Source of the DNA: Methylophilus methylotrophus DSM 46235 = ATCC 53528 | GTDB taxonomy: Bacteria; Pseudomonadota; Gammaproteobacteria; Burkholderiales; Methylophilaceae | Assembly (NCBI RefSeq): GCF_000378225.1 | Contig: NZ_KB905141.1 | Coordinates: 1,131,326 to 1,195,325, forward strand | DNA: 64,000 bases | Reading direction: 5' to 3' | In this document: piece after piece, positions 49,856-55,322 of the stretch | Layout: each line of letters starts with the position of its first letter | Numbering within the stretch: the first letter of the stretch is position 1 | The notes under the pieces: generated by a model | The model's database searches: none | What the model saw: the letters and a program-made list of their open reading frames with translations, nothing else | What the model was told of the DNA's origin: nothing | Made by a program: the position numbers and the translations under genes

Positions 49856-50296
49856 ATGCCTAACTTATATCTGGAAAACCAGTTGTGCTTTTCGCTTTAC
49901 TCGGCTACCCATGCATTACTGCGTTCTTACAAGCCTGATCTGGACAAACTAAACCTGACCTATCCACAATACCTGGTATTGGTCGCACTCTGGCAATACA
50001 AGCAGCTTTCGATTAAAGATATTGCCGAAAAGTTAATGCTGGAACCTGCCACCATTACCCCGGTCGTCAAACGTCTGGAAGCAAAAAAACTGACCAAGCG
50101 TACACGACAGAAGGATGATGAGCGCGTGGTGATTGTCAGCCTGACTGAAGAAGGACAAGCCTTGCGTAGCAAGCTTTCTGATGTGCAAAAGCGCGTCGCT
50201 TGCGATACAGGTCTGAACAGTGCCGCCTTTGATAACCTGAACAAAACGCTGAATGTGCTAACCAAAAGCGTGACAGCAAAAATTCCAAGCTATTAA
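49856..50296 (+). CDS. OhrR-like MarR-family peroxide regulator
   Basis: The 146-residue winged-helix protein begins YLENQLCFSLYSATHALLRSYKPDLD. The Cys11 in NQLCFSLYS is the reactive cysteine position of OhrR, the organic-hydroperoxide sensor. The wing region KLMLEPATITPVVKRLEAK and RVVIVSLTEEG follow. A second conserved-type Cys lies at about residue 120. No ohr gene is adjacent; it may control itself and a distant target. It ends with a strong terminator. Confidence 0.88.
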   Translation: MPNLYLENQLCFSLYSATHALLRSYKPDLDKLNLTYPQYLVLVALWQYKQLSIKDIAEKLMLEPATITPVVKRLEAKKLTKRTRQKDDERVVIVSLTEEGQALRSKLSDVQKRVACDTGLNSAAFDNLNKTLNVLTKSVTAKIPSY

Positions 50297-50347: not shown

Positions 50348-50381
50348 AAACAAAAGAGGAGCTTATGCTCCTCTTTTGTTT
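50348..50381. terminator. Terminator after the OhrR-like gene
   Basis: A perfect 15-bp stem, AAACAAAAGAGGAGC (50348-50362) and GCTCCTCTTTTGTTT (50367-50381), with a TTAT loop and flanking A/T. It can serve the OhrR-like gene and the leftward small-protein operon ending at 50444. Confidence 0.9.
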
Positions 50382-50443: not shown

Positions 50444-50686
50444 TCAATCAGGCATATTCAATTGCCGCATAAATGCCCTAAAAGAGCCTCTGGTCGCATG
50501 CAGAGCCTGCAATTTAGTCACGGACTCATCTAGGGCATCACTCAATAGCTCCAGCGCATCTTCATCCAGCCGCAAGCTCATGGCGCCAATTTCCAGCTCT
50601 ATGGTACGGTGTGTCTCGCAGTAATGCACACGGAATCCGGCCTGGCCAGACAAGAGAATCTTTTTACACATAGCTTTCTCATTCAC
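50444..50686 (-). CDS. Small protein of unknown function, third gene of Fur-box operon
   Basis: The 80-residue product starts at GTG 50686 behind a GAGGGA site. It resembles the 70-residue product encoded at 50992-51204: both have a KK.LLSG..A..V.Y start, an ELEIG or ELEVG strand, and an L(R/K)(L/F)D.D segment followed by a helix. It is otherwise unlike any family I know. It has one Cys pair (Cys7 and Cys23 approximately). It is co-transcribed with the two genes upstream from a Fur-controlled promoter. Confidence 0.7.
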   Translation of the reverse strand: MNEKAMCKKILLSGQAGFRVHYCETHRTIELEIGAMSLRLDEDALELLSDALDESVTKLQALHATRGSFRAFMRQLNMPD

Positions 50687-50707
50687 AATTTATCCCTCGT
50701 TTTATTG

Positions 50708-50977
50708 TTATGCGCGCAGCTGGGTGGTGGTCTGCTCATGTTCGTTGACCAGTAAGGTCCATTGCACGCACATGCGCCGAGAAACGCTGCAAATCAGTTC
50801 CGAATCGGCATACTCTGGTGCCGTCAGGGTTTCGGCCAAGCGCAATGCCTGTTTGGCCAAGTCATAGGTTGGCTTTTTGATATAGAGCGTCGCGACATAC
50901 AGCAATGACGCCATCACAGACTCGGCATCAGGCAGACTGGGATCGTAACGTATGGGATGGATATTCATGGTATTCAT
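50708..50977 (-). CDS. Small protein of unknown function, second gene of Fur-box operon
   Basis: An 89-residue cytoplasmic protein with AAAGG ahead of ATG 50977. It is mainly helical: SVMASLLYVATLYIKKPTYDLAKQALRLAETL, split in two helices, then DSELICSVSRRMCVQWTLL. There is no signal peptide or known motif. It lies between two paralogous small genes with gaps of 14 and 21 bp, so all three form one operon. Confidence 0.7.
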   Translation of the reverse strand: MNTMNIHPIRYDPSLPDAESVMASLLYVATLYIKKPTYDLAKQALRLAETLTAPEYADSELICSVSRRMCVQWTLLVNEHEQTTTQLRA

Positions 50978-50991
50978 GGCAGCCTTTCTTT

Positions 50992-51204
50992 TTAAACAAT
51001 CATCTCAATTTCGGTTTGCATCACAATGCGCGCCGCGGCCTTGCGCAACATTTCATTGATCACAATAAAGTGATCGGCGTCAAACTTGAGTGTGGTACCG
51101 CCAACCTCCAGTTCCACCATGTCCGAAGACTGATGGTAAAGCACCTTGCAGGCAGTCTTTCCAGCCAACATCGTTTTTCCAACCACTGTTTGACGTTTCA
51201 TCAT
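50992..51204 (-). CDS. Small protein of unknown function, first gene of Fur-box operon
   Basis: A 70-residue product behind an excellent AAAGGAG site and ATG 51204. The pattern GKTMLAGKTACKVLYHQSS then VELEVGGTTLKFDADHF and a C-terminal helix is shared with the third gene, so the two look like paralogues. The start is only about 24 bp downstream of a perfect 25-bp Fur-type palindrome inside a consensus promoter, so it should be iron regulated. Confidence 0.75.
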   Translation of the reverse strand: MMKRQTVVGKTMLAGKTACKVLYHQSSDMVELEVGGTTLKFDADHFIVINEMLRKAAARIVMQTEIEMIV

Positions 51205-51227
51205 GACGCTCCTTTGCTAAACCTTCA

Positions 51228-51260
51228 GTAAATGATAATAATTATCATTTACATTGTCAA
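51228..51260 (-). promoter_or_regulatory. Fur box overlapping a consensus promoter
   Basis: A perfect 12-1-12 palindrome (51228-51252; arms GTAAATGATAAT and ATTATCATTTAC) matches the Fur-box core. On the minus strand TTGACA (51260-51255) and TATCAT (51237-51232) are separated by exactly 17 bp, so the Fur box covers the spacer and -10. This is a textbook iron-repressed promoter for the operon at 50444-51204. Confidence 0.85.
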
Positions 51261-51328: not shown

Positions 51329-53965
51329 TCAGGGCACAGCAGGTGGAACATATGACAGCAAGAATGCCGTCGCATCGTCACTGTTCAGAGGCTTGCTGAG
51401 CAGGTAGCCCTGCATTTCGTCACAGCTCTGTGCCTGCAAGAATGCTTTCTGCTCGGGCGTTTCCACCCCTTCAGCGATGGTCTTGAGCCCCAGACTGCGG
51501 GCCAGCTGGATAATCGCAATGACAATCGCCTTGTCTTCATCGTCAGTACTGATATCGCGGACAAAGGTCTGGTCGACCTTGAGCTTGTAGACTTTAAATT
51601 TTTTCAGGTAGCTCAATGAAGAATACCCGGTCCCAAAATCGTCAATCGACAGGCGCACACCGAGTTTGTTTAAGGCATCCATCATGGCCACAGCCCCTTC
51701 CGGGTTTTCCAGTGCCACGCCTTCGGTAAGCTCCAGTTCCAGGCATTCTGGTGAAACGTTGTAACGCTCCAGGGTAGACTTCACCAGCGCAGGCAACTTA
51801 GGGTCGCGGAACTGGATACTGGATAAATTGACTGACACCGAGATACCGTGCAAGCCTGCCAGCCGCCAGGCATAAATTTGTTGTGTTGCTTGCTCCAGCA
51901 CCCAGCTGCCTATGGAAATAATCAGACCACTCGATTCTGCCAGCGGGATAAACTCAGCGGGTGAAATAAAACCGAGCTGGGGATGCTTCCAGCGCAGCAA
52001 GGCTTCCACACCTAGCAAACGGCCAGTATCCAGCGCCACTTGCGGCTGGTAGTACACTGCCAGTTGCCCCAGTGAAATCGCCTGGCGCAAGGCATTGACC
52101 AATTGCAAGTTACGCGCTGTTTGCACCTGCATATGATTGCTAAAAAAGCGGTAACTGTTGCGGCTCTCTTTTTTGGTGCGGTACATCGCCACATCGGCAT
52201 TGCGTTGCAGGCTTTCCATATCCAGGCCGTCATCAGGATAAATCGCCACCCCGATGGATGCCGTAATGGTGAGTTCATACTGGTCTATGACAAACGGCTG
52301 TTCAACAGCTTTCAACAAGCGTTCTACCACTTCCCTGGCAATCACATGGTCTGCTTCTGCCAGCAAAAACACAAATTCATCTCCACCCAGGCGGCAAATC
52401 GTATCCTGCGGCCGCACCAGGCTTTCAAAACGCTTGGTCAAGGCAATAAGCAAGTTATCGCCATAGCGATGCCCCAGGCTGTCATTTACATCCTTGAAAT
52501 GGTCAAGATCAAGGAACATCAACGCGAACTGGCCATCCTGGTCCCAGGCTTTTTCAATTTCAACCGTCACCCGTTCATTGAGCAAATTTCGGTTTGGCAA
52601 CCCAGTGAGGGTATCGTAATTTGCCAGTACACGGATACGCTCTTCCGCCTCTTTGCGCTTGGTAATGTCACGGATAAACGCACTGTAGTAATGTTCGTGA
52701 CCACGCTCAATTTCAACAATGGTTAACTCGATAGGAAATTCGCTGCCATCCCTGCGCAAAGCCTTAATCTCGATCAGCTTGCCCAACAGGCGGGACTGCC
52801 CTGTTTGTTGCAACCTGAGGATCCCTTGGTGATGTGCGTCTCGGTGCTCTGGCGGCACAATCAGGTCTTCGAGCCGGCGGCCTAACACTTCGGCGCGCGT
52901 ATAGCCGAAGATATGTGCCGCAGCCCGGTTCCATTCCACAATCAGGCCCTGCATATCAATATTCACAATCGCATCCAGTGCATTTTCCAGCACCAGTCGT
53001 GCTCGTTGCTCACTGTCTTGTAAATGGCTCTGGATCAGGCTACGCTGTGCCTGTACTTCAAAGCGGTCGAGGGCAAAGTCAATATTGGCCGCCATGCCTT
53101 GCAGCAAGCGCTGGGTGTCGGGCTCAAACGCATGAGTTTCTCCAGCATAGAGCGCCAAACAGCCAATCACTTTGCCCTCAATATGCAAGGGTAAAAAAGC
53201 GGCAGATTTCCAGACGAACTCCCTGGCTTTTTCGTGCCATAGGGCAGTCATAGGATTGGTTTGAAAGTCATGCACCCAGTAGGGATGGTCGGAAATCAGG
53301 CTTAAACCGCAAGGCCCTTTACCACTGGGCTGGGCCGGGTCAGCCGAGATCTCGACTTCATCCAGGTAATGAATGCCTGAACCATATGCGCTGAGGACGG
53401 TGATGCGCTTATGATCGGCACCCAGCTCGCCAATCCAGGCCATATTGGCATGGCCCAGGTTAACGATGATGCGACAAATTTGCTCAAAAAGGATATATTT
53501 ATCCTGGCTTTGCACAATCGCATGGTTACATTGGGATAATGCTAGGTAAAGCTGATTCAAATGCTGAGGATGCTGCCTGCCAGATGGGTCTAAGGCACTT
53601 AATTCCTGACTCTGGTCAAGCAATTGCTGCCAGCCGGCTTGCACGCTTTCCTCTTGCGCCGGGGAAAATTTGACCGGGGAAAACTCTTCACTGGAAAAAG
53701 CATGTGCCAGTACCTGGTTCAATGTTTGGAGATCGGCAGCCTGCCTGGCCAAGAGCAGGCGGCGCTGGCGCCAGGCGAGGACAGTCACCAGGCACCATAA
53801 GCCGATTCCAATCGCGAGCAGCACGATAGCGGCGAAATGCACTGGCGCAAACAGATCTGAGTAGATGAGCAATAACAGGCAAATCAACAGCGCAAACAGC
53901 ACCATCAGCCATAAATGTCTGATAAGCCTGTCCCGCCCTGCAGATGTGAATTGTTGTGCAGTCAT
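51329..53965 (-). CDS. Membrane GAF-PAS-GGDEF-EAL c-di-GMP protein
   Basis: The 878-residue protein has two N-terminal helices (LWLMVLFALLICLLLLIY and AIVLLAIGIGLWCLVTVLAW), GAF (about 150-310), PAS (about 320-440), GGDEF (about 450-615) and EAL (about 625-870). The cyclase motif GGDEF (527-531) and the EAL triplet (654-656) with DDFGTGYSS and KVDQTF are intact, so both activities are possible. A 24-bp palindrome (54001-54024) precedes its start. It runs in the same direction as the Fur-box operon, which has its own promoter. Confidence 0.92.
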   Translation of the reverse strand: MTAQQFTSAGRDRLIRHLWLMVLFALLICLLLLIYSDLFAPVHFAAIVLLAIGIGLWCLVTVLAWRQRRLLLARQAADLQTLNQVLAHAFSSEEFSPVKFSPAQEESVQAGWQQLLDQSQELSALDPSGRQHPQHLNQLYLALSQCNHAIVQSQDKYILFEQICRIIVNLGHANMAWIGELGADHKRITVLSAYGSGIHYLDEVEISADPAQPSGKGPCGLSLISDHPYWVHDFQTNPMTALWHEKAREFVWKSAAFLPLHIEGKVIGCLALYAGETHAFEPDTQRLLQGMAANIDFALDRFEVQAQRSLIQSHLQDSEQRARLVLENALDAIVNIDMQGLIVEWNRAAAHIFGYTRAEVLGRRLEDLIVPPEHRDAHHQGILRLQQTGQSRLLGKLIEIKALRRDGSEFPIELTIVEIERGHEHYYSAFIRDITKRKEAEERIRVLANYDTLTGLPNRNLLNERVTVEIEKAWDQDGQFALMFLDLDHFKDVNDSLGHRYGDNLLIALTKRFESLVRPQDTICRLGGDEFVFLLAEADHVIAREVVERLLKAVEQPFVIDQYELTITASIGVAIYPDDGLDMESLQRNADVAMYRTKKESRNSYRFFSNHMQVQTARNLQLVNALRQAISLGQLAVYYQPQVALDTGRLLGVEALLRWKHPQLGFISPAEFIPLAESSGLIISIGSWVLEQATQQIYAWRLAGLHGISVSVNLSSIQFRDPKLPALVKSTLERYNVSPECLELELTEGVALENPEGAVAMMDALNKLGVRLSIDDFGTGYSSLSYLKKFKVYKLKVDQTFVRDISTDDEDKAIVIAIIQLARSLGLKTIAEGVETPEQKAFLQAQSCDEMQGYLLSKPLNSDDATAFLLSYVPPAVP

Positions 53966-54170: not shown

Positions 54171-55322
54171 CTAACACTCGGGTGCCCAGGACATTTGTCC
54201 GCACCCCAGTAACTTGGCCTGGTACATGGCCTTGTCTGCGGCAGACAAAACTGCCTCTATCGCATCGCCCTCATGACACAAAGTTAACCCTATCGAGGTC
54301 CCCAGCTGGCAAATGTGATCAAGAATCTGGAATTCCCGTTCAAATACCCTCAGGCATTTCTGGGCCACCATTTCTACTGATGCCTTGCTCTGCGTGGGCA
54401 AATCAGAGAGCACCACCACAAATTCATCCCCTCCCACACGGGCCAGTGTATCGCTCCCGCGAATCACACTACTCAACCGCTGGGCCACTTCCACCAGGGC
54501 TAAATCCCCCGCTTCATGCCCCAACTGGTCATTCACCGCCTTAAAGCCATCCAGGTCGAGGTACAGAATAGCCGTCCCATTCTTTTTGGCCTTGGCCAAC
54601 TCCATCGCCTGCTGCAAACGTAAAGACAACAATTTGCGGTTAGGCAATCCCGTCAATGCATCATGATGCGCGACATGATTGAGTTCCTCGTTATGCAAAG
54701 AAATCTTGTGGTAAGCCTCTTTTAAAGAGCCAATCAAATCCTCGTTCTCAAAACTGATGCGTGCCGCCTGTCGTAAAGACTGGTTAAAACGGTAAGCCAC
54801 GCCTATCATCAACAGGTAAAAAATCACGCTAAACACTGCCATGATGAAACTCGACAGGTTTTCGCTGAATGAAAACACCAGCACGGTTGGCAGCATGGCT
54901 GGCAAACTAAAAGCAAAAAAAGCAGGGATACAGGAAGCCATCGTCACTACCCCACCCATTACCATGGCCTGGATAGCCGTGATGACAATAATCACCGTCA
55001 TGGGGGGTGCATCTTTTGCCAGGAAACCTAATGCTCCCCAGGCCAACCCCGAGAGCGCCAGGGTCAGGCAATATTGATAGGCCAGGGGATAACTGAACCC
55101 ATGTTTGGCCAGCATGTGTTTGCAGCGCTTGAGACAATAGACGCGGAAGATAATCACGATATACACAACTGCGCACCAGAGCAGGAACCAACGACTGTTT
55201 TCTGAGCCCAGCTGTGACAACGCAATAAGCAAACCACCAAATGCACTCCCCAGCAAAGGAATACGCGCCCCCGATAACAGTCGGTGAAATAGTGCTTCGT
55301 CAATCCGAGTTTGCAAACTCAT
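54171..55322 (-). CDS. Membrane diguanylate cyclase (GGDEF)
   Basis: The 383-residue protein has an N-terminal domain of about six helices (residues 20-185), a coiled linker and a GGDEF domain (about 215-375). The GGDEF motif (297-301, in ARVGGDEFVVVL) is intact and there is no EAL domain, so the likely role is c-di-GMP synthesis. It is the only plain GGDEF protein of the window and sits downstream of no obvious partner. Confidence 0.9.
   Translation of the reverse strand: MSLQTRIDEALFHRLLSGARIPLLGSAFGGLLIALSQLGSENSRWFLLWCAVVYIVIIFRVYCLKRCKHMLAKHGFSYPLAYQYCLTLALSGLAWGALGFLAKDAPPMTVIIVITAIQAMVMGGVVTMASCIPAFFAFSLPAMLPTVLVFSFSENLSSFIMAVFSVIFYLLMIGVAYRFNQSLRQAARISFENEDLIGSLKEAYHKISLHNEELNHVAHHDALTGLPNRKLLSLRLQQAMELAKAKKNGTAILYLDLDGFKAVNDQLGHEAGDLALVEVAQRLSSVIRGSDTLARVGGDEFVVVLSDLPTQSKASVEMVAQKCLRVFEREFQILDHICQLGTSIGLTLCHEGDAIEAVLSAADKAMYQAKLLGCGQMSWAPEC

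Follow-up and report, generated by a model that had tools for sequence, protein, structure and literature searches.

Three small genes of the methanol-using bacterium Methylophilus methylotrophus (Methylophilaceae), here called A, B and C, very probably serve the cell during iron starvation in connection with haem and TonB-dependent uptake. They lie on the reverse strand of the window (the stretch of 64,000 nucleotides that was analysed), behind a promoter whose -10 hexamer is covered by a Fur-type palindrome, and comparison of the sequences gives strong support to control by Fur and to a role in iron starvation. With moderate confidence, we posit that the three genes form an accessory module of haem/TonB iron uptake under Fur repression, comprising a metal-binding C, a metal-less A and a helical B. 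The Fur box, the genes, the paralogy of A and C, the linkage to hemP-tonB-exbBD and the ligand pattern of C come from comparison; the folds are predicted. An iron-starvation function had been suggested by the first-pass annotation from the promoter. That suggestion is borne out by boxes in relatives, by iron genes that share the core of the box and by linkage to hemP, tonB, exbB and exbD, and it was incomplete: the haem/TonB linkage, the metal-ligand pattern and the wider family lay beyond what the earlier reading had to hand.

The promoter, the Fur box and the genes

The promoter scan placed a -35 hexamer, TTGACA, at 51255-51260 and a -10 hexamer, TATCAT, at 51232-51237, both on the reverse strand; with its 17-nt spacer the promoter (51260-51232) agrees with the consensus at 11 of 12 positions. 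We base the call on this agreement, on the position and on the conservation of TTGAC in genus-mates, and not on the number of sites, given that the scan found 2 promoter-like sites in the stretch versus 1.5 in shuffles. The core search and a symmetry count put the Fur box at 51228-51252 on the same strand. It is a 12+1+12 bp palindrome, GTAAATGATAATTATTATCATTTAC, that spans the whole -10 and most of the spacer, and it is symmetric throughout (24 of 25 positions) except for the centre base, which in a palindrome of odd length is unable to pair. The earlier description of a 25-bp Fur-type palindrome in the spacer and -10 of this promoter is thereby confirmed.

The box agrees with the classical 19-bp Fur consensus at 16 of 19 positions. 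That consensus gave no match within 2 mismatches in the whole genome, so the core of the window box, ATGATAATNATTATCAT, was used as the genome query instead. In the window, the core has a single match at ≤3 mismatches, which is exact (shuffle mean, 0.35 at ≤3 mismatches). Genome-wide, 11 sites match at ≤2 mismatches and none matches the reversed-pattern control. All 11 were inspected, and besides the window box, 6 of the 10 others are iron linked. The second exact site lies directly upstream of the Bfd-type ferredoxin gene bfd (PF04324), and on its other side is a gene that we take to encode bacterioferritin. Sites with 1 or 2 mismatches precede a TonB receptor gene and a second TonB receptor gene at the end of a haem cluster, and further sites precede an ECF sigma factor gene, the PNPOx-type/HemS-type genes of the haem cluster and, provided that the B paralogue starts at an internal ATG of a long open reading frame (ORF), an operon of B paralogue, S4, hemP and tonB. 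Four of the 11 are without an obvious iron link, three of these lying inside ORFs with 2 mismatches. A 1-mismatch site on contig C8 (G000:C8:36501; L069 3002) has as its nearest gene, judged by eye, one for a putative secreted protein. The genome encodes two proteins that match the FUR family, with scores of 158.9 and 37 bits. Since the same box stands before known iron genes in a genome that encodes Fur, the A-B-C box would appear to belong to a Fur regulon.

Gene A (50992-51204, 70 amino acids [aa]) starts at the ATG at 51204, or it may start at a second ATG at 51201. It is followed after 14 bp by B (50708-50977, 89 aa) and, after another 21 bp, by C (50444-50686, 80 aa), which has a GTG start; all three are on the reverse strand. 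The three-gene operon described in the first-pass annotation is thus present, and its extent of 50444-51260 was drawn slightly short, as a 15-bp terminator-like hairpin on the reverse strand reaches 50348 (50348-50381). This hairpin, between C and a convergent marR-type gene, has a folding energy of -23.1 kcal/mol and a z-score of -6.95; none of 200 shuffles was equally stable, and it is not among the sites of the consensus scan. Compared with seven genus-mates, A, B and C have dN/dS values of 0.02 to 0.12 in 13 of 21 comparisons, at a dS of 0.97 to 2.45 that is itself near saturation; in the remaining 8, dS is saturated and dN is 0.06 to 0.28. Based on this purifying selection where dS could be estimated, we regard A, B and C as real genes.

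As for the flanks, the convergent gene (49856-50296, forward strand) encodes a MarR-type regulator whose nearest NCBIfam model is OhrR of Vibrio (147.9 bits; cut-off, 200), and a similar gene adjoins the operon in several genus-mates. Directly upstream, a gene for a GAF-PAS-GGDEF-EAL protein (51329-53965, reverse strand) ends 68 bp before the -35 hexamer, and a second GGDEF-like ORF was seen by eye at 54171-55322.

Neighbourhoods in the family and beyond

The combined A and C profile has matches in 83 of 187 genomes of the Methylophilaceae, in 15 of 24 genera. We mapped 80 of the 83, with 90 loci, leaving out G165 and G097 (no ORF above thresholds) and G186 (E = 0.0085). In the window's genus, most genomes have the order Fur box-A-B-C, so that the module is there a unit of its own outside the haem operon. 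The longest arrangement is Fur box-A-B-S4-hemP-C-Fur box-hemP-tonB-exbB-exbD; others are Fur box-B-S4-hemP-C-tonB-exbB-exbD, Fur box-hemP-C-tonB, Fur box-A-C and a lone A or C with a box. HemP/HmuP proteins are small regulators of haem-uptake operons, and C adjoins hemP and/or tonB in 32 of the 71 genomes that have C, as judged by text patterns. In the other 39 it was not found near either gene, and loci with a box and A or C alone are common, which argues that the proteins need not act directly with the haem system in every genome. The S4, TonB, ExbB, ExbD and HemS-type proteins were confirmed with Pfam in the window's own genome, as were S4 and TonB in L083 and S4 in L085; elsewhere they were called by text patterns, which miss some TonB genes. 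Among the 21 pairs in which tonB was recognised behind C, 18 have a possible tonB start inside the end of C, each time with the same 11-base overlap, which suggests translational coupling. Although haem operons under Fur control are a well-studied subject, two protein families without a curated name accompany hemP and tonB across much of the Methylophilaceae.

Does the box travel with the genes? Counted in the 250 bp upstream and the first 30 bp of the first gene, a box is present at ≤2 mismatches before 76 of 90 first genes and at ≤3 mismatches before 86 of 90 (80 family genomes; two first genes at contig edges were excluded). As controls, a box turned up in 5.8% of 4,500 random 280-bp segments drawn from the same loci (the true boxes among them) and in 2 of 8,800 mononucleotide shuffles made from 280-bp pieces of these loci. 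Four of the 90 are without a near box, with 5 mismatches in G005 and G171 and 7 in G204 and G206. In G005, the longest ORF was used as A, and the locus map contains a 1-mismatch box; in G171, B is in two pieces; in G204, hemP comes first, with a 2-mismatch box; and G206 has none. Among individual loci, L141 and L142 lie about 143 kb apart in one genome and carry a duplicated S4-C-tonB-exbB-exbD segment. In three genomes (L092 2306-2557, L096 2597-2896 and L026), a lone C with a Fur-like box converges with a gene for an aminotransferase (PF00202 in L096), presumably hemL of haem synthesis.

The window's own genome also has a haem-uptake cluster, with a B paralogue, an S4 paralogue, hemP (a PF10636 match), tonB, exbB, exbD, a gene for a HemS-type protein and a TonB receptor gene. 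The B paralogue (L066 14179-14634, reverse strand) stands at its head and matches B at E = 2.2e-21; there is no C between hemP and tonB, and A and C of the window are the sole A/C-family matches in the genome. With the B paralogue present and C absent in the cluster, the window operon has the look of a segment of the haem operon that has become a Fur unit of its own, or of a second copy. The S4 paralogue of the cluster (L066 13504-14121, reverse strand; similar genes at L083 2933-3550 and L085 878-1495) is complete, with 205 aa and both PF00163 and PF01479, and in many genomes of the family it sits in the Fur-boxed haem operon between B and hemP/C. Its occurrence there poses a separate question, that of ribosomes when metal is scarce; in the open-licence literature, the matches listed for an rpsD paralogue with a Fur box, iron limitation or hemP looked unrelated.

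Beyond the family, 368 other genomes of the class were searched with the family-only profile (A1), which matched 12 of them at E ≤ 0.05 and 6 of these at ≤2.6e-4. The matches are G346, G329 and G238 (6.8e-10, 1.1e-8 and 7.9e-10, in the order listed), G456 (2.2e-6), G212 (9.6e-5), G370 (2.6e-4) and G343 (0.019), and five more at 0.028 to 0.047 look like chance. A wide profile (A3) matched 12 of 368 at E = 0.01; it contains C of those seven genomes, so that A1 is the independent test. All seven have a box of at least 14/19, a loose threshold, upstream and B or a B-like gene in between. The distant B of G329 was the one found with a family-only profile (E = 2.5e-6); in G238, G346, G456 and G343, B was assigned by position and eye and then added to profile A4. 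G370 and G212 have an additional gene of about 60 aa in first place. In G301 and G551, no box of 14/19 or better accompanies C in the stretch examined, and in G551 C lies side by side with hemP; G485 and G502 look like chance matches, and in G384, C is broken into frames. Sparse as they are, relatives in the class keep the box, B and C together. In two related distant genomes (L121 1986-2171 and L123 2015-2206, reverse strand), a gene for another protein, of 61 to 63 aa, lies after the Fur-like box and ahead of the B-like gene, and in L136 (2944-4053, reverse strand) a B-like gene is followed by a frame-broken C and then by a peroxiredoxin-like sequence.

The three proteins

A and C are true paralogues, as the first-pass annotation had read from shared motifs. 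A search with A alone retrieved C of the same genome at E = 1.7e-3, C of genus-mates at down to 6.1e-8 and C of other genera at down to 1.7e-7. In a tree of 123 rows and 82 columns, for which the program warned of few columns and long branches, all A proteins fall on one side of one branch with support of 100/100, consistent with a single split of A from C.

The two paralogues differ in a set of candidate metal ligands. Among 77 distinct C proteins, position 7 is cysteine in 62 and histidine in 12, position 23 is cysteine in 75, position 26 is cysteine in 56 and histidine in 17, and position 30 is glutamate in 76; the window's C has C7, C23, H26 and E30, and in seven aligned distant relatives the same columns hold Cys, Cys, Cys and His. 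The exchange of cysteine and histidine at two positions points to metal binding rather than a disulfide, and we consider it probable that C binds metal. This conserved Cys/His/Glu set is found in C and not in A: among A proteins (39 distinct sequences), asparagine (22) or histidine (13) stands in the column of C23, and the columns of 7 and 26 show no residue in 60%, with cysteine or histidine in less than 30%. A helix motif, RKA[AV]A--VMQT, is near-invariant in A, which retains the sequence signature of the fold but not the ligands.

The AlphaFold2 model of C has four strands (9-15, 18-23, 28-33 and 36-40) and a helix (42-76), a predicted beta4-alpha protein, with a pLDDT of 85.6 from a shallow input alignment of 4 sequences; the five models range from 69.9 to 85.6, with a pTM of 0.56. 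Should the strands form a simple meander, residues 7, 23 and 26 would lie at one end of the sheet. B is predicted to form three helices (pLDDT, 84.3; 2 sequences in the input alignment). C has a pI of 5.9 and a net charge of -2 (median over 82 C proteins, -1), and A is about neutral; B has a pI of 5.5, and the median net charge of 48 B proteins is -4.

The first-pass annotation recognised no known protein among the three, and this stands at curated cut-offs: neither Pfam nor NCBIfam gave a match above them for A, B or C, the nearest thing being DUF6686, to which distant relatives of C are weakly linked, as discussed below. Foldseek searches with the C and B models gave no significant structural match (best E, 0.32 and 0.71), and the profiles of C and B against the sequences of solved structures gave best E-values of 0.19 and 0.42, again not significant. 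A alone has a weak UreE match (NCBIfam E = 0.0098), and two loci from the A search (L027 and L028) have surroundings that look by eye like urease operons; these matches are far below the cut-off, and we set UreE kinship aside. In the open-licence literature, no paper on the A, B or C families was found among the matches listed, and none on Methylophilus together with Fur, iron, TonB and heme.

Possible roles and known systems

How might such a module work? In our model, iron-loaded Fur on the box over the -10 hexamer would block RNA polymerase, and as iron falls, A, B and C would be made together. C would be a small cytosolic beta4-alpha protein that holds one Fe(II) or Zn via Cys/His at 7, Cys at 23, Cys/His at 26 and probably Glu at 30. 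A, with the fold of C and without its ligands, would probably be a partner or competitor of C, perhaps in mixed A-C dimers, and B would be a helical partner. The set would most likely tune haem/iron import or the use of imported iron, like HemP from the same operons. A regulatory or adaptor role is a tentative proposal that we put forward with low confidence. More doubtfully still, we speculate that the module could be a post-Fur checkpoint on haem/TonB import, with a cytosolic metal-sensing C, a metal-blind A and a helical B, and with C translationally coupled to TonB in many relatives. If so, such a checkpoint would span much of the Methylophilaceae, with Fur-box B-C units scattered in the class, and a ligand-bearing and a ligand-less paralogue in one operon would be a concrete design for an iron-responsive partner switch.

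Is C a regulator at all? It might be an iron-storage, iron-delivery or haem-binding chaperone, with A as an apo-form competitor. The Cys/His/Glu pattern, the possible coupling to tonB and the haem-handling neighbours would all suit such a role; there is, however, one possible metal site per chain and no match to known iron or haem chaperones, and we think this reading rather unlikely. Somewhat less probable again is that A and C are PC4/Whirly-like nucleic-acid-binding coactivators, helix-swapped beta4-alpha dimers that regulate haem/iron genes, as HemP reportedly does. The order of secondary structure elements in the C model is compatible with that fold class, the top Foldseek matches of C include 2nvn, 2it9 and MoSub1 4bhm (the last of which we take to be of PC4 type and the other two to share its SCOP fold of ssDNA-binding regulators), and hemP, itself a gene for a small regulator, is linked. 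These matches are nonetheless not significant (E, 0.32 to 1.9; query TM, 0.43 to 0.58), C is acidic and A about neutral, and to our knowledge a Cys/His site is not part of PC4. At the sequence level PC4 finds no support: neither A and C, scanned with Pfam as far as E = 10, nor distant C relatives gave a PC4 match, and PF02229 matched none of 134 genomes at E = 0.001, although the Lactococcus lactis control matched.

Two further readings fare worse. That the module aids translation or ribosomes under metal starvation, together with the S4 paralogue, is quite improbable: the S4 gene (PF00163, PF01479) lies directly behind B in many loci and the non-significant matches of the B model include small ribosomal chains, which we take to be bS20, but B is acidic, unlike an rRNA-binding protein, its Foldseek matches are at E = 0.71 or worse, and the window unit and many others are without S4. 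Finally, the short, unannotated proteins could be ordinary hypothetical ORFs beside a chance palindrome, an explanation that we give almost no credence, as it is contradicted by the purifying selection, the conserved boxes and the homologues in 83 of 187 family genomes.

Which known systems come closest? DUF6686 (PF20391) is the nearest curated family to C, and the link is weak. A scan of five distant C relatives gave two matches to it (E = 7.5e-4 and 4.1e-3), and its best match across 369 genomes is a C gene, that of a distant relative, at 21.9 bits. All matches nevertheless fall below the gathering score of 23.9, a C gene was the one matched in just 2 of 17 matching genomes, 2 of 14 control genomes also match below the cut-off, and the Pfam scan found no match to DUF6686 in A or C of the window; no paper on DUF6686 was found in the open-licence literature. 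HemP/HmuP (PF10636) resembles the module in context, as these are likewise tiny proteins of Fur-boxed haem/TonB operons and are often direct neighbours of C. In sequence they differ: hhalign of A3, which holds C and A, against an 8-row HemP alignment gave a probability of 0.1%, and neither the C-terminal HemP motif KLxLTK nor a PF10636 match occurs in A, B or C. This profile comparison rules out A/C as members of the HemP family.

A comparison by operon layout is offered by Stenotrophomonas maltophilia, for which one report describes a Fur-controlled operon, hemP-hemA-smlt0796-smlt0797, whose last two genes are small and of unknown function (PMC9241770). Deletion of either smlt0796 or smlt0797 gave no haemin phenotype in that report, which by analogy would count against a role of our module, the two being likened by layout. 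The same text differs from our picture of a cytosolic C in that the products of smlt0796 and smlt0797 are predicted to be periplasmic, one of them with a predicted signal peptide (PMC9241770). The likeness is one of operon layout: in L071, hemP is followed by a receptor fragment, B and C.
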